Origin: Phaeospirillum sp. | Lineage (GTDB): Bacteria > Pseudomonadota > Alphaproteobacteria > Rhodospirillales > Magnetospirillaceae | NCBI GenBank assembly: GCA_030824585.1 | Contig: JAVBXM010000025.1 | Coordinates: forward strand, 1-49,859 | DNA: 49,859 nucleotides | Direction of reading: 5' to 3' | Shown: piece after piece, positions 7,103-36,385 of the stretch | Numbering within the stretch: position 1 is the stretch's first letter | Layout: each line of letters begins with the position of its first letter | Notes under the pieces: generated by a model | The model's database searches: none | What the model was told of the DNA's origin: nothing | What the model saw: the letters and a program-made list of their open reading frames with translations, nothing else | Program-made: the position numbers and the translations under genes

Positions 7103-7303
7103 ATGCGGCTGGGTTCCCGTGGTGCAATTCGGCCTCCTTATGCCACAGGATGGACGACGCCATAGAGTCCCGATCGAAATTTCGGCGAAAACACCCTGCG
7201 CCGGCGGTGGCCCGCAAGGAACTGGCCGAAGCCGGGGAGCGCCGGAGATCTGCCGGATGGTCCGGCGGGGCCGGAACGGCCATGGGTTAGAATCAATCTT
7301 ATT

Positions 7304-7320
7304 TCTACTATTTTAGTAGA
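7304..7320. promoter_or_regulatory. Sulfur-block operator, site a (TCTACTATTTTAGTAGA)
   Basis: Perfect palindrome with 7-bp arms around TTT, 58 bases before the start of the ABC-transporter/CooC/CooS operon. It lies in an AT-rich island within an otherwise GC-rich 276-base gap. The same TCTA-N8/9-TAGA pattern recurs at 14008, 14141, 19390, 19737 and 23741, each in front of a sulfur-block gene. The shared pattern is seen directly; the function as operator is inferred. Confidence 0.7.
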
Positions 7321-7378
7321 CTGATTCATTTTTGACGCTGTATACCGGATCGGCCATCGGATTTCGGAGCAGGCGGTC

Positions 7379-8221
7379 ATGGTTATCGGCAAAGGGGACA
7401 TCGACAGGGGAAGCATCGAGCTTGCGGGCATCGGCCATGCCTTCGGCCGGCATGGTCCGCGCGTGCTGGACGGCATCACCCTGACGGTTCCCCATGGTCA
7501 ATTCCTCGCCCTGGTCGGCCGCAGCGGCTGCGGCAAATCCACCCTTTTGCATGTGATCGCCGGCCTGATCCATCCCCAGGCGGGCGAGGTCCGCATCGGC
7601 GGGCGGGCGGTGCGGGGGCCGTCGGCCAAATGGAACGTCATGTTCCAGTCGCCCTCGCTGCTGCCCTGGATGACCGCCGCCGGCAACATCGCGCTGGGCC
7701 TGCGCTATGCCGGGACGCCGAAGGCGGAGATCGGGAACCGGGTCGAGGAATTGCTGGCCCTGGTCCACTTGTCCGAGCATGCCGGCGACAACGTCCAGGA
7801 CCTGTCCGGCGGCCAGCAGCAGCGGGTCGCCCTGGCCCGGTCCCTGGCCACCCGGCCGGACGTGCTGCTGCTGGACGAGCCGTTCTCGGCGCTCGACCCC
7901 TTCACCCGCGCCACCCTGCAACAGGAGGTGCGGGCCATCGCCACCAGCCTCGGCCTCACCCTGGTGATCGTCACCCACGACGTGGACGAGGCCCTGCTGA
8001 TGGCCGGCCGCGCCGTGGTGATGGCGCCCCGGCCGGGACGCATCGTCGCCGACATCGCCATACCCGAGGCCGAACACGACCGGCGGGCCTTCGCCGAGGC
8101 CCGCGCCGAAGTGCTGGCCCGCTTCGAGGCGGCGCACCCGTCGGCGATCCCGGAGCGGGCCTCGAAGCCCTCCATCCGCCGCTTCTTCTTTCCCGCCCTC
8201 GGGCGGCAACCCCAGTCCTGA
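7379..8221 (+). CDS. ABC importer ATPase, nitrate/sulfonate/taurine (SsuB/TauB/NrtD) class
   Basis: Energy-supplying cytoplasmic subunit (280 residues) of an Ssu/Tau/Nrt-type importer. Walker A is GRSGCGKST, near residue 47. The Q-loop region MFQSPSLLPWMTAAGNIALGL is typical of this class. The signature is [15 protein letters not shown], Walker B is LLLDEPFSALD, and the switch histidine is in VIVTHDVDEAL. The C-terminal about 25 residues (KPSIRRFFFPALG) extend beyond the ordinary end. It is the first gene of a five-gene unit with the binding protein (12 bases later), permease, CooC and CooS-like genes, downstream of operator site a. Sequence alone does not give the substrate; the linkage to CooC/CooS is the main clue. 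Confidence 0.88.
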   Translation: MVIGKGDIDRGSIELAGIGHAFGRHGPRVLDGITLTVPHGQFLALVGRSGCGKSTLLHVIAGLIHPQAGEVRIGGRAVRGPSAKWNVMFQSPSLLPWMTAAGNIALGLRYAGTPKAEIGNRVEELLALVHLSEHAGDNVQDLSGGQQQRVALARSLATRPDVLLLDEPFSALDPFTRATLQQEVRAIATSLGLTLVIVTHDVDEALLMAGRAVVMAPRPGRIVADIAIPEAEHDRRAFAEARAEVLARFEAAHPSAIPERASKPSIRRFFFPALGRQPQS

Positions 8222-8233
8222 CGGAGACGCACC

Positions 8234-9448
8234 ATGTCCGACAGCAGCCCCCTGAAGCGCCCCGTGACGCGGCGCCGTTCCCTCGACATGCTGGCCGGAG
8301 GCGGCCTGGCCGCCTGGCTGGCCACCAAGGGCGGCCCAGGCTTCGCCGCGCCGCCCGAGGACGAGGTGGTGCGCATCGGCCATCTGCCCATCACCGACGC
8401 CACCGCCCTGCTGGTGGCCCACGCCATCGGCGCCTTCGAGGCGGAAGGCCTGAAGACCGAGCCGCCGGTGCTGCTGCGCGGCTGGTCGCCCCTGGCCGAG
8501 GGCTTCGCCGCCGGCAAGTTCAATCTGGTCCACCTGCTGAAGCCCATTCCGGTGTGGATGCGCTACAACAACAAGGTTCCGGTCAAGGTGGTGGCCTGGG
8601 CGCACACCAACGGCTCGGGCCTGGTGGTGGGCGGCAAGACCGGCATCACCTCCTTCGCCGACCTGGGCGGGCGGCAGATCGCCGTGCCGTTCTGGTATTC
8701 CATGCACAACATCGTGCTGCAGATCGGCATCCGCGCCGCCGGCCTGACCCCGGTGATCAAGCCGGCGGGCGAGGTGGTGGCCAAGTCGGAGGTCAACCTG
8801 CAGGTTCTGCAGCCCCCGGAGATGCCCCCGGCGCTCGCCGCCGGCAAGATCGACGGCTACATCGTCGCCGAGCCGTTCAACGCCCTGGGCGAATTGAAGG
8901 CGGGCGGCAGGATTCTGCGCTTCACCGGCGACATCTGGAAGAACCACCCCTGCTGCGTGGTCACCATGCACGAGGCCGATACCGCCAAGCGGCCGGAATG
9001 GACCCAGAAGGTGGTGGACGCCGTGGTCAAGGCGCAGATCTACGCCTCGGCCAACAAGAAGGAGGTGGCGCGGCTGATCTCCCAGGACGGCAAGGGCTAC
9101 ATTCCGCTGCCGGCCGCCGTGGTCGAGCGCGCCATCGGCCATTACGACGACCCCGACTATGACGCCCTGGGCGCCAACCGCCACCGCAAGGAATGGGGCA
9201 ACGGCCGCATCGACTTCCAGCCCTGGCCCTACCCCTCCGCCACCAAGCTGATCGTCGAGGCCATGGGCAAGACGGTGGTCAGCGGCGACAAGGCTTTCCT
9301 CGACAAGCTGTCGCCCGATTTCGTGGTGCAGGATCTGGTGGATTACTCCTTCGTCAAGCGCTCGCTCGACCGCTTCCCCGAGTGGAAAAAGGACCCCAGC
9401 GTCAATCCCGGCGATCCCTTCAGCCGCGCCGAGATCATCCGGGCATGA
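8234..9448 (+). CDS. Tat-exported periplasmic binding protein of the NrtA/SsuA/ThiY superfamily
   Basis: Periplasmic solute-binding protein of 404 residues, partner of the flanking ATPase and permease. The N-terminus has a Tat-type signal: twin arginines in TRRRSLDMLAGGGLAAWL, with cleavage probably after GFAA near residue 40. Tat export suggests folding or cofactor loading before export, or simply follows family habit. The mature start VRIGHLPITDATALLVA is the NMT1/NrtA-like opening, and the length is closer to NrtA/CmpA (about 400) than to SsuA (about 320). The ligand could be an organosulfur or organonitrogen acid or another small anion. The gene ends in an ATGA overlap with the permease start. 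RBS ACGGAGACGCACC precedes the ATG. Confidence 0.85.
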   Translation: MSDSSPLKRPVTRRRSLDMLAGGGLAAWLATKGGPGFAAPPEDEVVRIGHLPITDATALLVAHAIGAFEAEGLKTEPPVLLRGWSPLAEGFAAGKFNLVHLLKPIPVWMRYNNKVPVKVVAWAHTNGSGLVVGGKTGITSFADLGGRQIAVPFWYSMHNIVLQIGIRAAGLTPVIKPAGEVVAKSEVNLQVLQPPEMPPALAAGKIDGYIVAEPFNALGELKAGGRILRFTGDIWKNHPCCVVTMHEADTAKRPEWTQKVVDAVVKAQIYASANKKEVARLISQDGKGYIPLPAAVVERAIGHYDDPDYDALGANRHRKEWGNGRIDFQPWPYPSATKLIVEAMGKTVVSGDKAFLDKLSPDFVVQDLVDYSFVKRSLDRFPEWKKDPSVNPGDPFSRAEIIRA

Positions 9449-10209
9449 CGACGCACCGCCTGTTGTTCTCGGCCCTGGGGGTGGGGCTGCTGGTCGCCGT
9501 GTGGTGGGCGGCGGCGCAAGGGGTGGCCGCCGACCCGCGCACCGCCGCCTTCGCCGGTTTCGCCCCCCGGCCCGCCGTCCAGGCGCTGGTCGCCATGACC
9601 GAAGGCGGTGAACTGAGCCGCGCCATCGGCCCCAGCCTGGGCCGGGTGGCGGCGGGGCTCGGCTGGGCAGCCCTGCTGGGCATCCCGGTGGGAATCGCCT
9701 TGGGGCGCTCGCCGCTGCTGGGCGCCCTGACCCATCTGCCGTTCCAGTTCCTGCGCATGATCAGCCCCCTGGCCTGGATGCCGCTGGCGGTGATGGCCTT
9801 CGCCACCTGGGACGGGGCCATCGTCTTCCTGATCGCCGCCGCCGCCATCTGGCCCATGGTCTTCGCCACCGCCGCCGGGCTGGCCAAGCTGGACCCGCAA
9901 TGGTTCAAGGTGGCCCGCAACCTGGGGGCCGGGGCCTTCCATCTGCTCGCCACGGTGATCGTGCCGGCCATCGCCACCGATATCCTGACCGGCATCCGCC
10001 TCGCGCTGGGCGTCGCCTGGATCGTCCTGGTGCCGGCCGAATTCCTGGGTGTGACCTCGGGGCTGGGCTACGCCGTCAACGACGCCCGCGACACCTTGTC
10101 CTACGACAAGCTGGCGGCCACCGTGCTGGTCATCGGTCTGATCGGCTTCTCGCTCGACGGTGTGTGCCTCGTCCTTGTCCGGCGCTTTTCCTGGCGGAGA
10201 GCGTCATGA
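9445..10209 (+). CDS. ABC importer permease (SsuC/TauC/NrtB class)
   Basis: Inner-membrane channel subunit of 254 residues with about six hydrophobic segments. The family core is VTVIVPAIATDILTGIRLALGVAWIVLVPAEFLGVTSGLGYAV-like: an EAA loop (KVARNLGAGAFHLLATVIVPA) followed by the G-L-G-Y segment typical of SsuC/TauC. I start at the ATG that overlaps the preceding TGA (ATGA); the reading frame is open much further upstream, but that part has no permease similarity. The stop overlaps the cooC start in another ATGA. It is thus translationally coupled on both sides, tying the importer to the CooC/CooS pair. Confidence 0.85.
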   Translation: MTTHRLLFSALGVGLLVAVWWAAAQGVAADPRTAAFAGFAPRPAVQALVAMTEGGELSRAIGPSLGRVAAGLGWAALLGIPVGIALGRSPLLGALTHLPFQFLRMISPLAWMPLAVMAFATWDGAIVFLIAAAAIWPMVFATAAGLAKLDPQWFKVARNLGAGAFHLLATVIVPAIATDILTGIRLALGVAWIVLVPAEFLGVTSGLGYAVNDARDTLSYDKLAATVLVIGLIGFSLDGVCLVLVRRFSWRRAS

Positions 10210-10985
10210 AGATCGCGATCGCCGGCAAGGGGGGCGTGGGCAAGACCACGCTGACCGGCCTCTTGGCCCGCCAGATGGCCGAGGACGGCTACCGCGTCCT
10301 GGCCATCGACGCCGACCCCGACGCCAACCTCGCCTCGGCGCTGCCGCTGGACCAGCCCGGCCCGGTCACGCCGCTGGCCGCGCGCACCGACCTAATCGAC
10401 GCCCTTTCGGGGCGCGGCGCCCTGCCCGGCGGCATGGTGCTGCTCAACCCCGACATCGGGGCGGTCCTTCCCGAGTTCCGCCGGAGCTGGGGCGGAGGAC
10501 ACAGCCTGCTGACGCTCGGCTGGCACAAGGGCGGCGGCGAGGGCTGCTACTGCGCCGAGAACGCCGTGCTGAAACGGGTGCTGTCCGCCGTCCTGCCGGG
10601 CGCCACCGACGTGGTGCTGGTGGATGCCGAGGCCGGGCTGGAACACTTAAGCCGGGGCACGGCGCAGGCGGTCGACGCGGTACTGGCGGTGGTGCAGCCG
10701 GGCAGCCGCAGCGTGGAAACCGCCTTCGCCATCCGCGAGCTGGCCGCCGGCCTGGGCATCCGCGCCGTCTTCCCGGTGCTGGTGGGCGAGCGCGGACCAA
10801 ACGACGTGGACGCGGTGCAGTCCACCCTGGGCGACTGGCCGATCCTGGCCCACCTGCCCTGGGAGGATGCCATCCGCCGCGCCGACCTGGAGGGGCGGCC
10901 GCCGCCCATTCCCGAATCCTTCCGGCCCGCCCTGCGCCGGCTGATCCTGACCCTGGCCTCCGCCTGCCCCCTGGAGCATCCATGA
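10206..10985 (+). CDS. cooC: CooC-type nickel-insertion ATPase for a CODH-like enzyme
   Basis: Cytoplasmic MinD/ParA-family ATPase of 259 residues. It has the deviant Walker A GKGGVGKTT (residues 7-15), the DADPDANL motif at 35-42, and DAEAGLEHLSRGT as the switch II region. CooC proteins bind Ni(II) at a Cys-X-Cys pair and drive Ni insertion into the C-cluster of CO dehydrogenase; here the pair is C114-Y-C116 in GEGCYCAENA, so the metal-binding feature is intact. It overlaps both neighbours by ATGA and is followed directly by the CooS-like gene, its presumed client. Retention of this maturase argues that the CooS-like protein still carries an assembled metal cluster despite its altered ligand set. 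Confidence 0.88.
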   Translation: MKIAIAGKGGVGKTTLTGLLARQMAEDGYRVLAIDADPDANLASALPLDQPGPVTPLAARTDLIDALSGRGALPGGMVLLNPDIGAVLPEFRRSWGGGHSLLTLGWHKGGGEGCYCAENAVLKRVLSAVLPGATDVVLVDAEAGLEHLSRGTAQAVDAVLAVVQPGSRSVETAFAIRELAAGLGIRAVFPVLVGERGPNDVDAVQSTLGDWPILAHLPWEDAIRRADLEGRPPPIPESFRPALRRLILTLASACPLEHP

Positions 10986-12934
10986 CCCCCGATGAGCTCA
11001 AGGCGCACCGCGCCTCCTACCCCTCCCGTGCCCAGGTGCGCGAGACCACTCCCGACCCGGCGGTGCGCGCCCTGCTCGACCTCGCCGCCGAGAAGGGCAT
11101 CTCCACCGTCTTCGACCGCTTCGACAAGCAAAAGAACCATTGCGGCCACGGCCTGACCGGCGTGTGCTGCCGCATCTGCCACATGGGGCCCTGCCAGGTG
11201 ACGCCCCGGGCGCCGCGCGGCGCGTGCGGCGCCGATGCCGACGTCATCGTGGCGCGCAATATCCTGCGCTGGATGGCCGGCGCGGTGGCCGCCCACGGCG
11301 CAAGGGGGCGCGAGGTGATCCTGGCACTCAAGGCCGCCGCCGAGGGCCGCCTGGACCAGCCCATCCGGGGAATCGCCAAGCTGAACGCCGTGGCCAAGGC
11401 GCTGGGCCTGTTCGACGAGGCCAAGAGCGTCCACACCCTGGCCGCCGAGGTGGCCGACGTGCTGCTCGACGACATGAGCCGCACCGTGCCGGGCGACCAC
11501 CGCACGCTGCGCGCCCTGGCCCCGCCCGAGCGCATCAAGGTCTGGGAGGAGCTGGACATCCTGCCCATCGGCTCGCAGCAGGAGGTGTTCGAGGCCCTGC
11601 ACCGTACCGGCGTCGGCACCGACGGCGACTGGCAGAACCTGATGAAGCAGTTCCTGCGCTGCGGCCTGGCCTTTTCCTGGTCGTCGGTGGCGGGCTCGGC
11701 CATCGCCATGGACATCCTCTATGGCCTGCCGCAACGCTCGCGCATCGCCACCAACGTGGGCACCATCGACCCGGCCTGCGTCAACATCGCCGTCCACGGC
11801 CATTCGCCCGTACTGGTCAGCGCCATCGTCGAGGCCGCCGACGACCCCGATATCCAGGCCCAGGCCAAAGCGGCGGGCGCGGCGGGCATCAAGTTCTACG
11901 GCATCTGCTGTTCCGGCCTGTCGGCGCTGTACCGCCACGGCGACGTCCATCCGCTGGCCAACGCGGTGGGGGCCGAGCTGGTGCTGGCCACCGGGGCCAT
12001 CGATTTGTGGGTCGCCGATCTGCAGGACGTCTATCCCGGCATCATGGACGTGGCCGAGTGCTTCCACACCAAGGTGGTGACCACCAGCGATTCCGCCCGC
12101 CTGCCGGGCGCCATCGCCATGGGCTTCGACCATACCCATTCCAACCTGGGCGAGACCCGCGCCATGGCGCGCCGCATCGTCGAGCTGGCCATCGCCAACC
12201 AGCCGCTGAGGAGCGCCGCCAACGTCCATATCCCGCCGGTCACCGCCGAGGCCGAGATCGGCTTTTCGGTCGAGAACATCGGCGAGGCGTGGGGCGGCGC
12301 GGGCGCGCTGCTCGACGCGCTGAAAAGCGGAACGGTGCGCGGCATCGTCAATCTGGTGGGCTGCAACAACCCGAAGATTCCCTATGAGGTGGCCATTTCC
12401 AAGGTGACCGACATCCTGCTGGCCCATGACGTGCTGGTGCTGACCAACGGCTGCGCCTCGTTCCCGCTGCTCAAGCAGGGATATTGCACCACCGGCGCCC
12501 TGGACAAGAGCGGCGACGGCCTGCGACGGGAACTGGGCCAACGGCAGTTGCCGCCGGTGCTGCACATGGGCGAGTGCCTGGACAACGCCCGGGCCTCGGG
12601 CCTGTTCCGCACCCTGGCCGATGCCGCCGGCCGGCCGATCAAGGACATGCCCTTCGCCTTCTCCAGCCCGGAATGGTCCAACGAGAAGGGCGTGGGGGCG
12701 TCGCTCAGCTTCCGCCTTCTCGGCCTCAACTCGTACCACTGCATCCCGGCCCCGGTTACCGGCTCGCGAAACGTCCAGCGCTTCTTCGAGCACGACACCG
12801 CCGACATCCTGGGGGGCGTCATGGTGGTGGACAACGATCCCGAGGCACTGGCCCTGCGCCTGATCGCCGACCTCGACACCCGCCGGGACCAACTCGGCTG
12901 GCCGGTTTCTTCGGCCGGAAATGCCGTGCCATGA
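10982..12934 (+). CDS. CooS-like Ni-Fe-S protein (anaerobic CO dehydrogenase family) with altered C-cluster
   Basis: Cytoplasmic CODH-family protein of 650 residues, the usual length. The D-cluster cysteines (C54, C62) and B-cluster cysteines (C63, C66, C71, C82) are all present. For the C-cluster, compared from memory with Carboxydothermus CODH-II, the counterparts of H261 (VHGHSP, 272-274), C295 (GICCSG, 309/310), C446 (GCNNP, C461), C476 (TNGCAS, C491), C526 (HMGECLDN, C532) and K563 (NEKGVG, K569) are kept. The C333 position (family DYQCIQP) reads DLQDVYP: D349, codon GAC at 12026-12028. Of the CODH-II histidine ladder H93/96/99/102 only the first (H105) remains. A CO-oxidising role is therefore doubtful. 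The operon has no CooF, hydrogenase or CooA but does have CooC and an Ssu-type importer. Confidence 0.85.
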   Translation: MTPDELKAHRASYPSRAQVRETTPDPAVRALLDLAAEKGISTVFDRFDKQKNHCGHGLTGVCCRICHMGPCQVTPRAPRGACGADADVIVARNILRWMAGAVAAHGARGREVILALKAAAEGRLDQPIRGIAKLNAVAKALGLFDEAKSVHTLAAEVADVLLDDMSRTVPGDHRTLRALAPPERIKVWEELDILPIGSQQEVFEALHRTGVGTDGDWQNLMKQFLRCGLAFSWSSVAGSAIAMDILYGLPQRSRIATNVGTIDPACVNIAVHGHSPVLVSAIVEAADDPDIQAQAKAAGAAGIKFYGICCSGLSALYRHGDVHPLANAVGAELVLATGAIDLWVADLQDVYPGIMDVAECFHTKVVTTSDSARLPGAIAMGFDHTHSNLGETRAMARRIVELAIANQPLRSAANVHIPPVTAEAEIGFSVENIGEAWGGAGALLDALKSGTVRGIVNLVGCNNPKIPYEVAISKVTDILLAHDVLVLTNGCASFPLLKQGYCTTGALDKSGDGLRRELGQRQLPPVLHMGECLDNARASGLFRTLADAAGRPIKDMPFAFSSPEWSNEKGVGASLSFRLLGLNSYHCIPAPVTGSRNVQRFFEHDTADILGGVMVVDNDPEALALRLIADLDTRRDQLGWPVSSAGNAVP

Positions 12935-12952: not shown

Positions 12953-12964
12953 ATTGTATACAAT
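12953..12964. promoter_or_regulatory. 12-bp perfect palindrome ATTGTATACAAT
   Basis: A perfect palindrome in the 130-base gap between the converging cooS-like and hydrolase genes. TTGTATACAA cores are typical operators of GntR/FCD-family regulators. With converging genes on both sides it has no obvious promoter to control, so it could be a relic, a site for an unrecognised small transcript, or chance. Only the palindrome is seen; any function is inferred. Confidence 0.3.
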
Positions 12965-23661: not shown

Positions 23662-23740
23662 CATCCCCTCCATCGAGCGCCGTTCATTTCCACGAGAACC
23701 TTTATTCCACACAGATCGGCGCACCGTCAACACTCTTTTA

Positions 23741-23757
23741 TCTACTATTTTTATAGA
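23741..23757. promoter_or_regulatory. Sulfur-block operator, site e
   Basis: TCTACTATTTTTATAGA, 95 bases before the first gene of the sulfur-oxidation operon. It shares its first 11 bases with site a and has the same N9 spacing. Preceded by GTCAACACTCTTTTATCTA, nearly the same as at site d. Confidence 0.65.
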
Positions 23758-23852
23758 CATATGCCGGTGACGAGGCTATACGGATTCGGCGGCGGCGGCC
23801 GGAGGTTGAATGACCCCGCCCCCGCCGGACACGCAAAGGGGGGGGGGTACGC

Positions 23853-25055
23853 ATGCCTTTTGTTCGCACGACATTCGGGGCGGTTTTCGCCTTGGGACTG
23901 GCGGTTGGCGCCGCCCTTCCCGCCCACGCCGACTATGACCGCAAGAAGCTGGACGGCATCGCCGAGACGGCGGTCAAGTCGCTTTCCAGCCCCGACCAGG
24001 CCAAGGAATTCGCCACCCTGGTGACGCCGGAAACACTGGCGATCTGGGTGCATTGGCTGTCCGACAAGGACACCATCGCCGGCCTGCTGACCCAGGCCGA
24101 TCCCGCCAATCTGACCCGCTGGGTCCAGGTGATGACCAACCCGGCGCTGGTGTCCAACGTGCTGGCCGCCGCCGACCCCAAGCTGGCGCAGGAATGGATC
24201 GCCGGCCTTTCCGACCCGCGCCTGCTCGACGCCGTCATCGCCCTGGGCGATCGCAAGGTTCTGGACCGCTGGATCAAGGTCTTCACCAGTCCCCAGTTGA
24301 TCGACCAGTTGGTCAAGCTGGGCGATCCGGCCCTGACCGGCCAATGGGTCGCGCTGCTGTCCAACCCAAAGCTGGTGGACGTCATCGTCGCCTGGGGCGA
24401 TCCCAAATACTTCAATGCCCTGCTCCTGACCCTGTCGGACCCCAAGCTGATCGAGCCGTTCGCCGGCTCCGCCCAGGGCGAGCAATGGGGCGGCTGGCTG
24501 CGTACGGTGACCGACCCGCGCCTGTTCCAGACCTTCGCCAAATTCGCCGACGACAAGGCCATCGCGGCTTATGCCCGCGCCTTCGCCGATCCGCGCGTGG
24601 TCGACGCCACCCTGCGGCTGATCGAGCCCAAGCAGTTGGAGGCCTGGCTGCGCATCGCCACCGACCCCAAGCTGGTCAAATCGGCGCTGAAGCTGAACGA
24701 CCCCAAGCTGTTCAGCGGCTGGATCACCGCGCTGACCAGCCCGCGCAGCATCGAGACCATCACCCGTTTCAGCGACCCCAAGCTGGTGAACCAGTGGCTG
24801 CTGGCGCTCACCGACCGCAAGCTGATCGACAGCGCGCTGGGCTATGGCAACCCCGCCTATCTCACCCCCTATCTCGACGCCCTGACCGAGCCGCGCGTTC
24901 TGGACGCCCTGCTGCTGTCGGCCGATCCGCAATACCTGGACGCCACCCTGCGCGCCGCCGCCACCGCCTTGCGGGCTGGACGCGACGGTGCCGCCGCGGT
25001 CAGCAAGGAGTCTGGCAACAAGGCATCGGGCGCCAAGCCCGGGAAGGAGAAGTGA
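23853..25055 (+). CDS. Periplasmic solenoid protein built of about twelve 25-residue W-DP repeats
   Basis: Exported protein of 400 residues: a Sec signal peptide (about 1-26, cleavage after AHA), then about twelve tandem 25-residue units from near residue 68 to 370. The unit pattern is W-h-x-x-L-S/T-D-P-x-L-h-D-x-h-h-x-h-x-D-P-K-x-h-x-x (examples WIAGLSDPRLLDAVI, WLRIATDPKLVKSAL). The Trp is sometimes Tyr or Leu. The composition predicts two short helices per unit, hence an alpha solenoid suited to protein binding. The tail is Lys/Gly/Ser-rich and disordered. I do not recognise the family. It leads the operon with DUF302, a second repeat protein, SoxYZ and FccAB, so a scaffold or chaperone role for periplasmic sulfur carriers is an inference. 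Confidence 0.75.
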   Translation: MPFVRTTFGAVFALGLAVGAALPAHADYDRKKLDGIAETAVKSLSSPDQAKEFATLVTPETLAIWVHWLSDKDTIAGLLTQADPANLTRWVQVMTNPALVSNVLAAADPKLAQEWIAGLSDPRLLDAVIALGDRKVLDRWIKVFTSPQLIDQLVKLGDPALTGQWVALLSNPKLVDVIVAWGDPKYFNALLLTLSDPKLIEPFAGSAQGEQWGGWLRTVTDPRLFQTFAKFADDKAIAAYARAFADPRVVDATLRLIEPKQLEAWLRIATDPKLVKSALKLNDPKLFSGWITALTSPRSIETITRFSDPKLVNQWLLALTDRKLIDSALGYGNPAYLTPYLDALTEPRVLDALLLSADPQYLDATLRAAATALRAGRDGAAAVSKESGNKASGAKPGKEK

Positions 25056-25722: not shown

Positions 25723-26679
25723 ATGCTGAGAAAAATCCTGACCGCCGCGGCCGTCAGCGCCGTCCTGAGCGTCGGTGCCGCCCAGGCCGCCGAGCATCCG
25801 CTGGACGTTACCGCCCTCAACCGCATCGTGACCGAGCTTTCGGCCGGCGGCACCACCATCGACCGCAAGCAGATCGAGGAATGGACCGCCGCCCTGGTCT
25901 CGCCCGCCGCGCTGAAGTCGGTGGTGGAAAGCAACGACGGCACCTATGTGGAAGCCTGGCTGCGCGCCGCCTCCGACCCCAAGGTGATCGACGCCGCCCT
26001 GCGCGCCGCCGACCCCAAGCTGCTGGACCACTGGCTGAAAAGCGTCACCGATCCCCGCCTGGTGGCATCGCTTACCCGGCACGCCGACGCCAAGGTCATC
26101 GCCGCCTGGCTGGACGGCGCCTTTTATGCGCCGCTGATCGACCAACTGGCCGGCGCCCAGCCCGGCGGCGACCGATTCAAGTCGTATGCCGACGCCCTGG
26201 TCAGCCCGGCGGCGGTCAATCTGGGCCTCAAGCTCTCTGACCCGGTGGTGGTGGAAAAATGGGTCCGCGCCGTCACCGATCCGCGCTTCGTCACCGCCGT
26301 GGCGGCCTCGGGCCAGCCCAAGCTGATCAACGCCTGGATCAAGGCGCTGAGCAGCGACAAGACCATCGCCGCCGCCACCGCCCTGACCCAGCCCGCCGCC
26401 ATCCAGCAATGGCTGCTGGCCCTGACGGTGGTGACCCAGGACCAGAACCTTCTGAAATACCTCGACCCCGCGACGCAAAGCGCCTGGGCCGCCTCGCTGG
26501 CCAATCCCAAGGTCATCGAAAGCCTGACCAAGCTGGGCGACGCCCGGATCTCCGGCCGCTGGGTCCAGGCGCTGTCCGATCCCCAGGTGGTCACCGCCCT
26601 GGTCGCCAGCGTCAAGCCCGAGGTGCTGATTTCCTTCATCCGCGCCCTGGCCGCCGTCAAGGAAGGGGCCAAGCCGTGA
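25723..26679 (+). CDS. Second periplasmic W-DP repeat solenoid protein
   Basis: Exported protein of 318 residues: signal peptide MLRKILTAAAVSAVLSVGAA (cleavage after AQA), then about ten 25-residue units of the same kind as the protein at 23853 (WLRAASDPKVIDAAL, WLKSVTDPRLVASLT, WVRAVTDPRFVTAVA, WVQALSDPQVVTALV). The copies are more diverged and the unit near residues 125-145 is irregular. The shared period and motif show the two proteins are paralogues, one probably arising from the other with repeat loss or gain. The stop overlaps the SoxY GTG start, so its synthesis is coupled to the sulfur carrier. Function unknown. Confidence 0.75.
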   Translation: MLRKILTAAAVSAVLSVGAAQAAEHPLDVTALNRIVTELSAGGTTIDRKQIEEWTAALVSPAALKSVVESNDGTYVEAWLRAASDPKVIDAALRAADPKLLDHWLKSVTDPRLVASLTRHADAKVIAAWLDGAFYAPLIDQLAGAQPGGDRFKSYADALVSPAAVNLGLKLSDPVVVEKWVRAVTDPRFVTAVAASGQPKLINAWIKALSSDKTIAAATALTQPAAIQQWLLALTVVTQDQNLLKYLDPATQSAWAASLANPKVIESLTKLGDARISGRWVQALSDPQVVTALVASVKPEVLISFIRALAAVKEGAKP

Positions 26680-29972: not shown

Positions 29973-30181
29973 CAAGGCGAGGAAAGCCCCACCACAGCCG
30001 CAGCGTCGATTCCTCGGGAAGCGGCGGCATTGGTGCGGCGGCGAATGGCGTTGCGCCAAATCCGCCACAAAACCATCACTCTATAGGCTTAATAGGTTTA
30101 TTATTGACGCGCTATCCGATCGCATCGTAGTGTTATTTCACTAGATACTACCGCAATAACCTGTTGTTTGAGGGGCGCTCG
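29973..30181 (+). promoter_or_regulatory. Leader of importer iv with weak operator-like sequences
   Basis: A 209-base gap whose right half is AT-rich. TCTA-N9-TAGG at 30080-30096 is one base off the sulfur-block operator pattern. A separate inverted repeat TAGTG-N6-CACTA lies at 30128-30143, followed by CTAGATACTA. These may be a diverged operator for the importer at 30182, but the match is clearly weaker than at the other sites. The left half holds nothing I can support. Confidence 0.3.
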
Positions 30182-31171
30182 ATGCTTTTTTCCACGCTTT
30201 GGACCCGTACCCTTCGCGCCAGCCTGGCGGCAGTGGCCGCGCTCAGCCTGTCCGGGGCGGCGATGGCCGCCGATAAGGTCGAAGAGATCAAGATCGACTA
30301 TGCCTATTACAACCCGGTCAGCCTGGTGCTGAAGGACAAGGGCTGGCTCGAGCAGGAATTGGCCAAGGACGGCATCAAGGTCCGCTGGGTGCTGTCGCTG
30401 GGCTCCAACAAGGCCCTGGAATTCCTCAACGCCAAAAGCCTGGATTTCGGCTCGTCGGCCGGTGCCGCCGCTTTGCTGGCCCGCATCAACGGCAATCCGG
30501 TGAAGTCCGTCTATGTCTATTCCAAGCCGGAATGGACCGCCCTGGTGACGGCCAAGGATTCCTCCATCCAGAAGGTCACCGACCTCAAGGGCAAGCGCGT
30601 CGCCGCCACCCGCGGCACCGATCCCCACATCTTCCTGACCCGCACCCTGGCGGAAAACGGCCTGACCGAGAAGGACGTCAAGATCGTCCTGCTGCAGCAT
30701 CAGGACGGCCGTCTGGCCCTGGCCAAGGGCGATGTCGACGCCTGGGCCGGCCTCGATCCGCTGATGGCCCAGGCCGAGCTGGACGACGGCGCCCGCATCT
30801 TCTACCGCAATGCCGACATCAACACCTGGGGCGTCTTGAACACCCGCGAGGACTTCATTGCCAACCATCCGGAACTGGTTTCCAGGGTGCTGGCGGTCTA
30901 CGAGAAGGCCCGGGCCTTCGCCATCGCCAACCCGGCCGAGCTGAAGAAGACCATCGTCGAGCAGGCCAAGCTCAACGACGCCGTCGCCGCCCGCCAGTTG
31001 GAGCGCACCGATCTGTCCACCGCCGCCATCGGCGAGCGTCAGAAGAAGACCATCGAGGGCGCCGGCCTCGCCCTGCAGCAGGCGGGAGTCATCCCCGCCG
31101 ACGTGAATGTTCCCTCGGTTGCCGCCGCCCTGGTAGACTCGTCCTTCGTCACCAAGCTGGGCGTCAAGTGA
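30182..31171 (+). CDS. ssuA: Sulfonate-type ABC periplasmic binding protein (SsuA class), importer iv
   Basis: Periplasmic binding protein of 329 residues: signal peptide to about residue 29 (cleavage after AMA), then EEIKIDYAYYNPVSLVLKDK and GIKVRWVLSLGSNKALEFLN, the SsuA-type opening; the end QAGVIPADVNVPSVAAALVD is also typical of aliphatic-sulfonate binding proteins. The ATG at 30182 is favoured by GAGGGG seven bases upstream; an in-frame TTG at 30164 would lengthen the signal peptide. First gene of a unit with permease, ATPase, acyl-CoA synthetase, OsmC and a PLP enzyme. Confidence 0.87.
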   Translation: MLFSTLWTRTLRASLAAVAALSLSGAAMAADKVEEIKIDYAYYNPVSLVLKDKGWLEQELAKDGIKVRWVLSLGSNKALEFLNAKSLDFGSSAGAAALLARINGNPVKSVYVYSKPEWTALVTAKDSSIQKVTDLKGKRVAATRGTDPHIFLTRTLAENGLTEKDVKIVLLQHQDGRLALAKGDVDAWAGLDPLMAQAELDDGARIFYRNADINTWGVLNTREDFIANHPELVSRVLAVYEKARAFAIANPAELKKTIVEQAKLNDAVAARQLERTDLSTAAIGERQKKTIEGAGLALQQAGVIPADVNVPSVAAALVDSSFVTKLGVK

Positions 31172-31181
31172 GGTCGTCACC

Positions 31182-32006
31182 TTGTCATCCGTAAACTCCT
31201 GCGCCGCCTCCACTTTGGAGGCGGCGCTCCCGTCTCGGCGCCCCAACCTCAAATGGCTGCTGGGCTTCATCCTGCCGGTGGGCCTGGCCCTGGCCTGGGA
31301 AGTGGCGGTCGCCCTGAAATGGGCCGACGGCCGCCTGCTGCCCACGCCATCCCGGGTGTTCACCACCCTGGCCGGGCTGGCCAGGACCGGTGAGCTGGCC
31401 GCCCATGTGCTGGCGACCCTGCAGCGCGTGGCGCTCGGATTCGGGTTCGGCGTCGCCGCCGGCACCGTGCTGGGCGCGGTCAGCGGCTATTGGACCCTGG
31501 CCCGGCGGCTGATCGATCCCATGCTCCAGGCGCTGCGCAACATTCCCTCCATCGCCTGGGTGCCGATGTTCATCCTGTGGTTCGGCATCTTCGAGACCTC
31601 GAAGGTGATCCTGATCGCGGTCGGCGTGTTCTTTCCCATCTATCTCAGCCTGTCGGGCGCCATCTTGGGGGTGGACCGCAAGCTGGTGGAGGTGGGGCGC
31701 ATCTTCCGCTTCAGCCACCGCGAGATGATCACCCGCATCCTGTTGCCCGCCACCCTGCCCGCCTATGTCATCTCGCTGCGCTCCGGCCTGGGGCTGGGCT
31801 GGATGTTCGTGGTGGCCGCCGAGTTCATGGGCGCCGAGGAAGGCCTGGGCTTCCTGCTGGTCGACGGCCAGCAGACCGGCCGGCCGGCGGTGATCCTGGC
31901 CTCCATCACCGCCTTCGCCATCCTGGGCAAGATCACCGACTGGCTGCTGGCCTCGGTCTCGGCCCGGTTCCTGACCTGGCAAGATTCCTTCAAGCCGGCG
32001 GAGTAG
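31182..32006 (+). CDS. ssuC: Sulfonate-type ABC permease (SsuC class), importer iv
   Basis: Inner-membrane permease of 274 residues with the SsuC-type core: ALRNIPSIAWVPMFILWFGI, then the EAA loop EVGRIFRFSHREMITRILLPATLPAY and FMGAEEGLGFLLVDGQQTGR. The TTG start at 31182 has GTGAGG about 9 bases upstream; no ATG fits better. It precedes the ATPase by four bases. Confidence 0.86.
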   Translation: MSSVNSCAASTLEAALPSRRPNLKWLLGFILPVGLALAWEVAVALKWADGRLLPTPSRVFTTLAGLARTGELAAHVLATLQRVALGFGFGVAAGTVLGAVSGYWTLARRLIDPMLQALRNIPSIAWVPMFILWFGIFETSKVILIAVGVFFPIYLSLSGAILGVDRKLVEVGRIFRFSHREMITRILLPATLPAYVISLRSGLGLGWMFVVAAEFMGAEEGLGFLLVDGQQTGRPAVILASITAFAILGKITDWLLASVSARFLTWQDSFKPAE

Positions 32007-32010
32007 AGCC

Positions 32011-32781
32011 ATGCTCGGCATTTCCAATGTGGACAAGCGCTACCCCAACGGCCTGCTGGCCCTGTCCGGCCTGAACCTCGACGTGGCGGAAGGCGAGATC
32101 CTGGCCATCGTCGGCGGCTCGGGCTGCGGCAAGAGCACCTTGCTGCGCCTGATCTCGGGGCTGGACACGCCCACCGCCGGAACCGTCGCCCTGGACGGAA
32201 CCCCGGTCACCGGGCCGCGCCCGGAAATCGGCCTGGTATTCCAGGAGCCCCGGCTGATGCCCTGGCTGACCATCGACCAGAACGTCGCCTTCGGCATCCG
32301 CCACCTGCCCCAGGCCGAGCAAAAGGCCCGCGTCTCCGAGAGTCTGGCCCGGGTCGGGCTGGCCTCCCATGTGGGCCATTGGCCGCGCGAGCTGTCGGGC
32401 GGGCAGGCCCAGCGCGTCGCCCTGGCCCGCGCCCTGGTGGGACGGCCCAAGGTGCTGCTGCTGGACGAGCCGTTCTCCGCCCTGGATGCGCTGACCCGCG
32501 GCGACCTGCAGGACCATCTGCTGGACCTGTGGGCCTATGACCGCCCGACCATGATCCTGGTCACCCACGACATCGAGGAGGCCCTGGTCCTGGCCGACCG
32601 CATCGTGGTGATGCAGCCCAATCCCGGACGGGTGCGGGTCGAGGTCACGCCGCCCCTGGCGCGGCCACGCGATCGCCTGGACGCCGAATTCCTGCAATGG
32701 AAATACAAGCTGCTGGGCGATCTCGACCATGCCAGCCGACCGCCCACCGGCGACGAATCCTTCCCCGCCGTAGCCATCTGA
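32011..32781 (+). CDS. ssuB: Sulfonate-type ABC ATPase (SsuB class), importer iv
   Basis: ATPase of 256 residues with Walker A GGSGCGKST, Q-loop FQEPRLMPWLTI, signature LSGGQAQRVALARAL, Walker B LLLDEPFSALD and switch LVTHDIEEAL, all intact. It completes importer iv. The acyl-CoA synthetase begins eight bases after its stop, so import and activation genes share a transcript. Confidence 0.88.
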   Translation: MLGISNVDKRYPNGLLALSGLNLDVAEGEILAIVGGSGCGKSTLLRLISGLDTPTAGTVALDGTPVTGPRPEIGLVFQEPRLMPWLTIDQNVAFGIRHLPQAEQKARVSESLARVGLASHVGHWPRELSGGQAQRVALARALVGRPKVLLLDEPFSALDALTRGDLQDHLLDLWAYDRPTMILVTHDIEEALVLADRIVVMQPNPGRVRVEVTPPLARPRDRLDAEFLQWKYKLLGDLDHASRPPTGDESFPAVAI

Positions 32782-32788
32782 GGGCACC

Positions 32789-34737
<1,949 letters not shown>

Positions 34738-34741
<4 letters not shown>

Positions 34742-35250
34742 ATGCCGATGAGTTGCGCAGCCTTCAGGCGCCGCTGAAGGACAGCTACAAGACCGCCCCC
34801 GAAGTCGCCCGCATCACCTTGAAGTCCAAGGGCGAGCTGGATTCCGACGATGTGGTCTGCCGGGTCGAGACCGGCCGCGCCCTGGTGGAAGCCGGTCTGC
34901 ACCCGGCCACCGGCGGTACCGGTGCTTTCGCCTGTTCCGGCAACATGCTGCTGGATGCCCTGGTGGCCTGCGCCGGCGTCACCTTGAAGGCGGTGGCCAC
35001 CGCCATCGAGTTCGACCTCAAGGGCGGCACCGTCGCGGCCGAAGGCGATCTGGATTTCCGAGGTACCCTGGGCGTGGCCAAGGATGCGCCGGTGGGCTTC
35101 GGCGAGATTCGCCTGACCTTCGATCTCGAGACCTCCGAGCCGCAGGAGCGCATCGACCAGTTGACCAAGCTGACCGAACGCTATTGCGTGGTGTTCCAGA
35201 CCCTGGCCAAGCCCCCGGTCCTGGCGCTGACGGTCAAGAGCCGTGGCTGA
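34738..35250 (+). CDS. OsmC/Ohr-family thiol-dependent protein
   Basis: Cytoplasmic protein of 170 residues with the OsmC fold pattern. A first reactive cysteine lies in LLDALVACAGVTLKAVA (near residue 80) and a second in LTERYCVVFQTLAKPP (near residue 146), the spacing expected for the peroxidatic/resolving pair. The family reduces organic hydroperoxides or detoxifies reactive sulfur and electrophiles. It overlaps the synthetase stop by ATGA and the PLP gene by eight bases, so it belongs to the same unit; a role in handling sulfane sulfur or peroxides formed during organosulfur use fits but is inferred. Confidence 0.85.
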
Positions 35251-36385
35251 AGACGGCAAGCGGCCAGAAACCCTGGCGGCCCACGCCATGGGGCGGATCG
35301 ACGGGGCGACGGGGGCGGTCATTCCCCCCATCCATCCCTCGGCCACCTATGAGCGCGACGCCGATCTGGGGTATTCCAGGGGCCGCTGCTATTCCCGCGC
35401 CGACAACCCCACCTACGACGCGGCGGCGGATACGCTGACCGCGCTGGAGGGCGGCGCCCAGACCCTGCTGTTCGCCTCGGGCATGGCGGCGGCGACGGCG
35501 GTGTTCCAGTCCCTGGAGCCCGGCGATCATGTGCTGGTGCCCAAGGTGATGTATTGGGCGCTGCGCGGCTGGCTGCACGGCTTCGCCACGCGGTGGGGGT
35601 TGGCGGTCGAGGCGGTGGACACCTCCGATCTGGAGGCGGTGCGCGCCGCCCTTCGGCCCGGCACCACCCGGCTGATCTGGGTGGAAAGCCCGGCCAACCC
35701 GCTGTGGGTGATCAGCGATATCGCCGCCCTGGCCGAACTGGCCCATGGCGCCGGCGCCCGTCTGGCGGTGGATTCCACCATCGCCACCCCGGTGCTGACC
35801 CGGCCGCTGGACCTGGGCGCCGATCTGGTCATGCATTCGGCCACCAAATACCTCAACGGCCATTCCGACGTGGTCGCCGGCACCCTGACCACCGCCGTCA
35901 AGGACGAGGCCTGGGCACGGATCAAGGCGGTGCAGACCCAGATCGGCGGTGTACTGGGGCCGTTCGAGGCCTGGCTGCTGCAGCGCGGATTGCGCACCCT
36001 GTTCGCCCGCGTGCGCTGGCAGTGCGCCTCGGCCCTCGACCTCGCCCAGCGCCTGTCAAACCACCCGAACGTGGCGGAGGTTCTTTATCCCGGCCTGCCC
36101 TCCTTCGCCGGCCACGCCGTCGCGGCGCGCCAGATGAGCGGCGGCTTCGGCGGCATGCTGTCCATCCGGATCGGGGGCGGTCGTGACAAGGCCATCGCCG
36201 TGGCCGCAGCCACGCGGGTCTGGACCCGCGCCACCTCTCTTGGCGGCGTCGAAAGCCTGATCGAGCATCGGGCCAGCATGGAAGGCGCCGGCTCGCCGGT
36301 ACCCGACGATCTTCTTCGGCTATCGGTGGGGTTGGAAGCCGTGGACGACCTTTACGCCGATCTGGAGCAAGCCCTCGGTCTATGA
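35243..36385 (+). CDS. Cys/Met-metabolism PLP enzyme (cystathionine gamma-synthase/beta-lyase family)
   Basis: Soluble PLP enzyme of 380 residues. The PLP-binding loop SGMAAATAVFQSLEPGDHVL, the aspartate in LAVDSTIATPV, and the Schiff-base lysine in MHSATKYLNGHSDVVAGT (near residue 205) are all present, as is the C-terminal SVGLEAVDDLYADLEQAL. The family includes cystathionine gamma-synthase, beta-lyase, gamma-lyase and sulfhydrylases, which by eye I cannot separate; the preceding importer suggests assimilation or release of sulfide. GTG start at 35243. Its stop overlaps by six bases the stop of the converging sulfhydrylase fusion gene, itself a member of the same family. Confidence 0.85.
   Translation: MAEDGKRPETLAAHAMGRIDGATGAVIPPIHPSATYERDADLGYSRGRCYSRADNPTYDAAADTLTALEGGAQTLLFASGMAAATAVFQSLEPGDHVLVPKVMYWALRGWLHGFATRWGLAVEAVDTSDLEAVRAALRPGTTRLIWVESPANPLWVISDIAALAELAHGAGARLAVDSTIATPVLTRPLDLGADLVMHSATKYLNGHSDVVAGTLTTAVKDEAWARIKAVQTQIGGVLGPFEAWLLQRGLRTLFARVRWQCASALDLAQRLSNHPNVAEVLYPGLPSFAGHAVAARQMSGGFGGMLSIRIGGGRDKAIAVAAATRVWTRATSLGGVESLIEHRASMEGAGSPVPDDLLRLSVGLEAVDDLYADLEQALGL

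Follow-up and report, generated by a model that had tools for sequence, protein, structure and literature searches.

Operator sharing and recurrent gene neighbours suggest a sulfur-supply role for a clade B CooS-like operon of Phaeospirillum sp.

Clade B comprises homologues of the Ni-containing carbon monoxide dehydrogenases (CODHs). In the accessible text of Inoue 2019 (PMC6344411), the groups B-1 to B-3 carry Asp or Glu at the second cysteine position of the C-cluster (Cys2), retain the acid-base His/Lys pair and have a type II D-cluster, and components of a NitT/TauT importer accompany all clade B groups, with Ni import as the guessed role. Here, we analyzed a CooS-like protein with the residue pattern of this clade, encoded in 49,859 nucleotides of DNA from Phaeospirillum sp. 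(assembly GCA_030824585.1, contig JAVBXM010000025.1, positions 1 to 49,859; hereafter the window), which is contig C183 in our numbering of a 4.94 Mb genome. The gene is the last in a unit of five plus-strand genes encoding, in order, an ATPase, a binding protein, a permease, CooC and the CooS-like protein. The window protein matches the published groups B-1 to B-3 in the Asp at Cys2, the His/Lys pair, the importer and the type II D-cluster (Cys-X7-13-Cys-Cys; C54-X7-C62-C63 in the window protein), and differs from what was described in that its operator is shared with cysteine genes and its relatives lie amid sulfur-assimilation genes. The substitution and the importer, which a first-pass annotation of this DNA had pointed out, are already published for clade B and are not new in themselves; the new element is evidence that suggests a tie between clade B and sulfur supply.

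Bohm and Land 2026 (PMC13056359) state that the function of clade B is not deducible from its gene environment, count ABC transporters in 64% and regulators in 12% of its operons, with 24% lacking any neighbour, and raise a degenerated function; the role is called unknown in PMC13240472. In the part of Katayama 2024 (PMC11338639) available to us, 'ABC transporter' and 'cysteine synthase' are separate cooS contexts that are not linked, and the literature surveyed by title and abstract opening contained no link between CooS and sulfur. A characterized protein with a CODH fold and a lost C-cluster cysteine is CooS-V of Carboxydothermus hydrogenoformans (clade D-1), which differs in that C295 is replaced by Glu and the acid-base His by Tyr; according to the available text, the one ligand change yields an Fe/S/O cluster ([4Fe-3S-nO]), CO activity is lacking, and slow hydroxylamine reduction is the only known reaction (PMC9311411).

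We propose that the clade B homologue works in sulfur acquisition, the CooS-like protein being an enzyme of this process and not of CO metabolism, which we consider probable; a role of the operon in sulfur supply, taken by itself, is very likely. Low oxygen is probably the setting. The observations behind this proposal are the residue set, the operator sharing, the recurrent sulfur neighbours, the clade pattern, the tree and the physical linkage. A sulfur-linked role on an imported molecule had been suggested in the first-pass annotation; the shared operator and the recurrent sulfur neighbours speak for it, whereas the importer turned out not to be obligatory and the Asp not to mark the context.

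The operon consists of genes for a NitT/TauT-type ABC importer ATPase (7379..8221; open reading frame (ORF) and profile match), an NMT1_2/NrtA-like substrate-binding protein (8234..9448; RR signal recognized by eye), an importer permease (9445..10209; ABC_perm SaoP-like, 145 bits, below the cut-off of 295), a CooC-like ATPase with C114-Y-C116 (10206..10985; ORF reading and domain match) and the CooS-like clade B protein (10982..12934; 500.6 bits with TIGR01702, whose cut-off is 478; Pfam PF03063; alignment). All five ORFs are present on the plus strand, and the ATGA overlaps that join the last four were read at 9445, 10206 and 10982, in agreement with the unit and the junctions annotated before. 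The CooS-like protein is the sole TIGR01702 match in its genome, and a match above the cut-off was present in 2 of the 17 genomes of the genus, the window genome included. Lacking a His-rich end, it fits the pattern of structural group B-2.

The putative palindromic operator TTTCTACTATTTTAGTAGAC is located at 7302..7321 on the plus strand, 57 bp before the ATPase start. Its core CTACTATTTTAGTAG (7305-7319) is a perfect palindrome except for the centre, with approximately zero occurrences expected in the window. A second copy with 3 mismatches (23739..23758, plus strand) lies 94 bp before the gene at 23853-25055, which precedes a sox-like block. When up to 3 mismatches to TTTCTACTATTTTAGTAGAC were allowed, only 3 sites were found in the 4.94 Mb (0 for the reversed control), namely before the CooS operon, before cysK and before gene 23853. 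The cysK site (contig C165, locus L116) is 58 bp upstream of the start, shares 26 identical consecutive bases (AGAATCAATCTTATTTCTACTATTTT) with the operon site and belongs to a gene scoring 425.7 bits with TIGR01139. The pattern CTACTN4TAGTAG with one mismatch added two sites, each no more than 150 bp upstream of cysE (C6, L082; TIGR01172, 228.1 bits); hits of the reversed control were common for this looser pattern (59 and 54), though not of the same AT-centred kind of word. The shared sulfur operator claimed in the first-pass annotation is therefore borne out, as the same site before cysK and as the palindrome core before cysE.

In Paramagnetospirillum marisnigri (L002), the operator precedes its copy of the CooS operon and cysK lies directly downstream of CooS. 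Across the 17 genomes of the genus, 8 operator sites were found in 5 genomes and none in the other 12. Two sites precede CooS operons, two precede cysK and one precedes gene 23853. Of the remaining three, one is 231 bp upstream of an ORF that matches Rrf2 weakly (28.8 vs 30 bits), one is about 70 bp ahead of a helix-turn-helix (HTH)-cupin regulator encoded on the opposite strand, and the script assigned no ORF to the third. The two sites near regulators lie in another genome of the genus (L292:1591-2454 and L293:754-1269; HTH-cupin and weak Rrf2). The HTH-cupin and weak Rrf2-match proteins are candidate cysteine regulators, and the putative operator set is most simply read as a cysteine-type regulon.

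The neighbourhoods of related CooS genes were examined in 80 loci kept out of 93 found, alongside 40 loci of other CooS proteins (mostly Bacillota, taxa unmatched, overlapping the 43-protein set used in the tree) and 20 regions around weak, presumably HCP-like TIGR01702 hits in clade B genomes. Core sulfur genes, counted as CysK, PF01053, CysE and sulfate ABC transporter families, were present in 35/80 clade B loci compared with 4/40 loci of other CooS (Fisher's test, 1.6e-4) and 0/20 weak-hit regions (1.1e-4), the loci being treated as independent despite their kinship. On the same strand and within 1.5 kb of CooS, core sulfur genes occurred in 22/80 clade B loci and in 0/40 controls, in which the closest gene of these core families was about 3 kb away. 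Addition of SirC and HcyD seeds raised the clade B count to 23/80, but the core-family count is preferred because two control loci carry nearby SirC-like genes; the sulfite reductase C seed matched in 2/80 clade B loci and 3/40 controls. Curated models supported representative cysK, O-acetylhomoserine (OAH) sulfhydrylase, CysE family, sulfate-binding protein, CysT and CysW genes, each scored above its own or a related-model cut-off.

All three importer genes were found in 69/80 loci and part of them in 8, where contigs end nearby; they were absent in L067, L068 (a 4.8 kb contig) and L074. In a locus of Geobacteraceae (L010), CooS and the importer are embedded in a sulfate-assimilation cluster, where CooS is surrounded by sulfate transporter, MetY-like, ThiF/MoeB-like, JAMM-like and sulfite-reductase-like genes, the MetY-like and sulfite-reductase-like ones scoring below their family cut-offs. 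The order in the Chlorobi loci L025/L027 is MetY, response regulator, CysK, CysE, CooS, importer and PF01053. An acyl-CoA dehydrogenase-like gene lies between the importer and CooC in L004 (5882-7036) and L005 and elsewhere in the loci L009, L018 and L070, with the N-terminal domain confirmed by Pfam in the genes of L004 and L009. The L004-type gene could presumably be an aerobic counterpart resembling DszC/SfnB.

A further set of loci was drawn from 398 Bacillota genomes, the search centre (G003) included, with the window protein at 1e-130. The draw yielded 23 matches, of which 9 are clade B proper (centre included), 12 are B-4-like and 2 are others; all 9 clade B proper proteins carry the Asp (D349) and all 12 B-4-like proteins the Cys. 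Drawn loci were examined with 8 kb flanks, one B-4-like locus (L260) being left out at a contig end. cysK was immediately 5' of CooS in 11/11 B-4-like loci fetched, two of these cysK genes having been run against curated models. Across the ten loci in which it was readable, the cysK-CooS gap ranged from about 10 to 192 nt, with the caveats that the CysK stop of L281 was misplaced by the script and that the CooS start of L274 is unresolved. The importer lay 3' of CooS in 10/11 of these loci, the contig of L281 ending first. In two importer-less clade B proper loci (L268 and L269), cysE-cysK is just upstream of CooS, and in a third (L271) a lactate/oxalate-type major facilitator superfamily gene is nearby. 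The clade B CooS of L269 has a long His-rich N-terminus (L269:7728-7980) with HDHDH-type repeats, as in group B-1 of Inoue.

RNA leaders were scanned in 44 loci and the window. In L276, a S-adenosylmethionine (SAM) riboswitch (87.5 bits) lies 60 nt before a cystathionine gamma-synthase (CGS) pair, cysK, CooS and the importer (CGS-CGS-cysK-CooS-importer), all on one strand. T-box leaders head cysE-cysK in L268/L269, with a putative specifier read as UGC, a Cys codon. No riboswitch was detected in the window, and the first nine loci scanned gave nothing but tRNAs and an unrelated aptamer for c-di-GMP.

The FastTree phylogeny comprised 145 rows, consisting of 90 D349 rows, 12 Cys-intact proteins and 43 other CooS. 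The D349 rows are the window protein, the 80 related loci and 9 proteins from the Bacillota draw; L244 and L252 duplicate the L012 and L013 genes, leaving 88 distinct rows. The 90 rows formed one clade (support 0.87). The twelve Cys-intact proteins (L253-L264), which share about 40% identity with the window protein, were its sister (support 1.0), and the two groups together (102 rows) also had a support of 1.0; the label 'B-4-like', after the Cys-intact group B-4 of clade B, was given to these sisters by pattern, and the tree was built without the reference accessions of Inoue. The D349 clade includes loci of Caldicoprobacter and Ruminiclostridium (L043, L049), the genera given for group B-1 in the accessible part of PMC6344411. 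By record titles, clade B relatives occur in many phyla; judged by name, many of the hosts may be diazotrophs. The sisters resemble the window system in the pattern of importer and binding protein, and differ from it by Cys at the C333 position, Gly at 531 and cysK directly upstream. The Asp marks neither the importer nor the sulfur context, since the Cys-intact sisters share both; for the same reason, it probably tunes the function and does not create it.

Residues are compared below with CODH-II, in whose numbering the positions C333, C295 and His 96/99/102 are given. The CooS-like protein retains the D- and B-cluster cysteines (C54-X7-C62-C63, C66, C71 and C82), the C-cluster ligands H272, C310, C461, C491 and C532 and the acid-base pair H105 and K569; the retention of the B/D cysteines, most C-cluster ligands and the catalytic Lys569 had been noted before and was confirmed by alignment. 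The C-cluster ligand set of His and five Cys is incomplete, because the Cys2 position (C333) is occupied by D349 (codon GAC, 12026..12028), again as first annotated. Asp was found at this position in 80/80 related loci by alignment with the window protein and, in the Bacillota draw, in 8/8 clade B proteins as well as in the search centre, indicating that it is not due to chance, and Cys in 43/43 other CooS proteins. The B/D-cluster cysteines, H272, C310, C491, H105 and K569 are conserved across the 80 loci (82 rows with the window twice, the B/D cysteines being gapped in one truncated row). The alignment behind the tree adds C461 and C532 as invariant, and in it all C-cluster ligands besides Cys2, together with H105/K569, are kept in 90/90 D349 rows.

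E531 (codon GAG, 12572..12574) is located beside the Ni-ligand cysteine C532. It is present in 90/90 D349 rows, a constancy partly selected by the locus search patterns, which contained HMGECLDN, and also in all nine clade B proteins of the Bacillota draw; the 43 others have T/S/A/P and 12/12 Cys-intact sisters have G. At the proton-relay positions 96, 99 and 102, the residues R108, E111 and L114 are as the first-pass annotation described. Its argument holds at 96, where R occurs in 82/90 D349 rows and H in 42/43 other CooS and 12/12 Cys-intact sisters; it was rejected at 99 and 102, which are variable in other CooS, so that only 96 is informative. The structure of the CooS-like protein was predicted with a mean predicted local distance difference test score (pLDDT) of 86, below 50 for residues 50-73.

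The importer had been labelled Ssu-type, a loose name, since the binding protein scored 91.8 bits with SsuA_fam against a cut-off of 163.5 and is nearer to NrtA/CmpA and to the Staphylococcus aureus protein 3un6. Two other binding proteins of the window exceed that cut-off (14182, 204.5 bits; 30164, 245.1 bits). A profile of 26 relatives matched 3un6 best (1.8e-71), followed by NrtC, CmpC and NrtA, and a Foldseek search with the binding-protein model (pLDDT 87.7) returned NrtA, 3un6, CmpABCD parts and CmpA, with SsuA from rank 10. A pattern of YLPIT, W84, H124, S156, H158, VA[E/D]PF and CC240-241 is common, with few exceptions, to the 26 relatives and 12 more proteins, 10 of them from B-4-like loci. 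Because this pattern is identical in both groups, the D349 and the Cys-intact enzymes are probably paired with one and the same ligand. The neighbouring pair C240-C241 is invariant in the alignment, occurs also in 3un6 and may shape the ligand pocket. We presume that 3un6 is part of the S. aureus NWMN_0115-0119 locus. As far as can be seen from the available text of PMC5480029, that locus encodes a putative TauB/A/C importer in an operon of the CymR regulon, is sulfide-repressed under this cysteine regulator, and differs from the window operon in listing no CooS, a formate dehydrogenase-like protein being encoded instead.

A possible mechanism would begin with uptake of a small sulfur-containing anion by the NrtA/CmpA-like ABC importer. 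In the cytosol, the CooS-like enzyme would receive low-potential electrons via its D and B clusters, and two-electron chemistry at the D349-modified C-cluster would free inorganic sulfide or a precursor, which the O-acetylserine/O-acetylhomoserine sulfhydrylases (CysK, MetY) would fix; the common operator would switch the CooS operon together with the cysteine genes. Release of the sulfur by the enzyme itself, the reductive nature of this step and transport of the enzyme's substrate by the importer are our inferences. The sulfide could come, for example, from a C1-thio anion (such as a hydrated form of carbonyl sulfide (COS)) or from a sulfonate. A thiocarbonyl or C1-thio anion is our tentative first guess; it appeals because CODHs carry out C1 chemistry and the binding protein belongs to the bicarbonate/nitrate family; Ensign is said to have reported the reduction of COS by CODH in 1995. 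A sulfonate is almost as likely, an inorganic S-oxyanion is doubtful and any other substrate more doubtful still.

In the SsuABC/TauABC systems, an importer likewise serves a cytosolic enzyme under sulfur control, and these enzymes, SsuD/TauD, are O2-dependent oxygenases. The system described here differs in having an Fe-S protein of the CODH fold as its enzyme and a binding protein that scores under the SsuA cut-off. We give about an even chance to the broader reading that clade B, including the B-4-like proteins, consists of CODH-fold sulfur-assimilation enzymes, an O2-independent counterpart of SsuD/TauD with a Ni-Fe-S or Fe-S-O cluster that delivers sulfide to CysK/MetY, the Cys-to-Asp change being a later tuning. 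If a sulfur-acquisition role is correct, the CODH scaffold does sulfur chemistry, widening the known reach of its metal cluster, anaerobes gain a sulfur-scavenging route without an O2-dependent step, and clade B genes should not be scored as CO metabolism in surveys. Clade B would then be placed in the cysteine/methionine supply network, where surveys to 2026 give no function in their accessible text (PMC13056359, PMC13240472).

The best-surviving alternative, which we nevertheless consider unlikely, is an ordinary CO/CO2 enzyme that provides electrons for sulfite reduction or meets the C1 needs of Cys/Met synthesis, while a different compound would enter through the importer as the sulfur source. 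The acid-base His/Lys in all 90 D349 rows, the complete C-cluster of the sister group and the sulfite-reductase-like gene near CooS in L010 are consistent with it, and the sulfite reductase C gene of L193 and the partial match of L194, both beside CooS of other clades, fit electron supply. Against these stand the Asp in place of a C-cluster Cys throughout the derived clade and the lack of reported partners: the available text of PMC13056359 and PMC6344411 describes no association of clade B with CooF, hydrogenase or ACS (acetyl-CoA synthase), and none of the three was noticed in the five-gene unit.

Less likely again is the nickel supply proposed in the accessible text of Inoue 2019 (PMC6344411), in which the importer would bring Ni or another metal and CooS would be a Ni-CODH matured with it. 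The solved binding protein 3un6, a close one, is titled as zinc-bound, N-termini rich in His occur in part of the clade B proteins, and the window operon contains a CooC in which the Ni-binding CxC (C114-Y-C116) is kept, as first annotated. The annotation had concluded from this CooC that a Ni-type cluster is probably still built, which applies to a minority of clade B, as CooC was found in 11/80 related loci; its presence sets the window sublineage apart from most of the clade. No other CooS above the cut-off was present in 17/24 clade B genomes, and CooC was searched in 20 genomes (15 of these 17 and five importer-less ones, the seven with a further CooS being excluded). A homologue of the window CooC was absent at E 1e-8 in 18/20, the exceptions being P. 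marisnigri, which carries a copy of the operon, and a further genome in which three hits of 32-35% were found. A Ni cluster is plausible for the window-type protein, and other members of clade B might have a Ni-free one. Besides the lack of CooC, the operator shared with cysK/cysE, the cysK adjoining CooS in 11/11 sister loci and the nitrate/bicarbonate/sulfonate fold of the binding protein argue against nickel as the cargo.

A stress enzyme like the hybrid cluster protein (HCP), acting on hydroxylamine, NO or peroxide in the manner of CooS-V with its Fe/S/O cluster, has little chance. One ligand change can yield a [4Fe-3S-nO] cluster in the available account of PMC9311411, and the 18/20 genomes without CooC would allow some of these proteins to be Ni-free; the change, however, affects a different ligand, at the C333 and not the C295 position, and the surrounding genes belong to the synthesis of cysteine instead of to nitrogen stress. 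The window protein keeps C310 at the C295 site and thus has no CooS-V-type Glu, which, as in clade D-1, was found in 26/43 other CooS. A catalytically dead, degenerate CooS serving as a redox sensor of sulfur beside the importer is the least probable alternative: a degenerated function is raised in the accessible text of PMC13056359 and the gene is patchy (2/17 genomes of the genus), but 90/90 rows keep H105/K569 and every other C-cluster ligand.

Several observations weigh against the proposed role in sulfur acquisition. The importer was present in 3/8 drawn clade B proper loci and absent in 5/8, and L267, L270 and L271 lack both the importer and any tested sulfur gene. The supposition that Asp at the C333 position always goes with an importer was therefore rejected, importer genes being absent in 3/80 related loci as well. 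Tested sulfur genes were missing from 45/80 clade B loci, many of them on short contigs, and the window operon itself contains no sulfur enzyme, so that the operator is its sulfur link. The related loci are not independent, and the control taxa are unmatched. A sulfite reductase C gene (L193:10113-11129, minus strand, 466.8 bits) and a partial match (L194:9991-10638, plus strand, 76.3 bits) each lie no more than 250 bp from a CooS gene that belongs to a different clade; sulfur neighbours are therefore not exclusive to clade B, and a second CooS-sulfur link outside it is possible. The SAM riboswitch heads a CooS operon in 1/44 loci (1/10 of the B-4-like loci scanned), a terminator-like hairpin between cysK and CooS in L268/L269 means that the T-box may not reach CooS, and the S-boxes of L028/L030 and the T-box of L060 serve genes on the other strand, away from CooS. 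In the published surveys, as available, no sulfur genes are named above the 10% line for clade B (PMC13056359), and ABC transporter genes are tied also to clades D-F, besides B (PMC8776680); no biochemical study of clade B was found.

Further features were observed in the window. A perfect palindrome, ATTGTATACAAT, is located at 12953-12964, directly 3' of the CooS stop and between convergent genes; we take its shape to be that of a GntR-like operator. The genes at 23853-25055 and 25723-26679 encode proteins with signal-like starts and about 25% mutual identity, for which no confident match was found in Pfam or NCBIfam. Downstream of the operon, a sulfur island (14182-36385) includes the two binding proteins above the SsuA_fam cut-off (14182 and 30164), two TauD dioxygenases (18458 and 19821), SoxZ (27144) and a flavocytochrome c sulfide dehydrogenase (27810). 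Within it, the importer-led set at 30164-36385, in which the importer is followed by acetyl-CoA-synthetase-like, OsmC-like and PF01053 genes, looks like another organosulfur operon.

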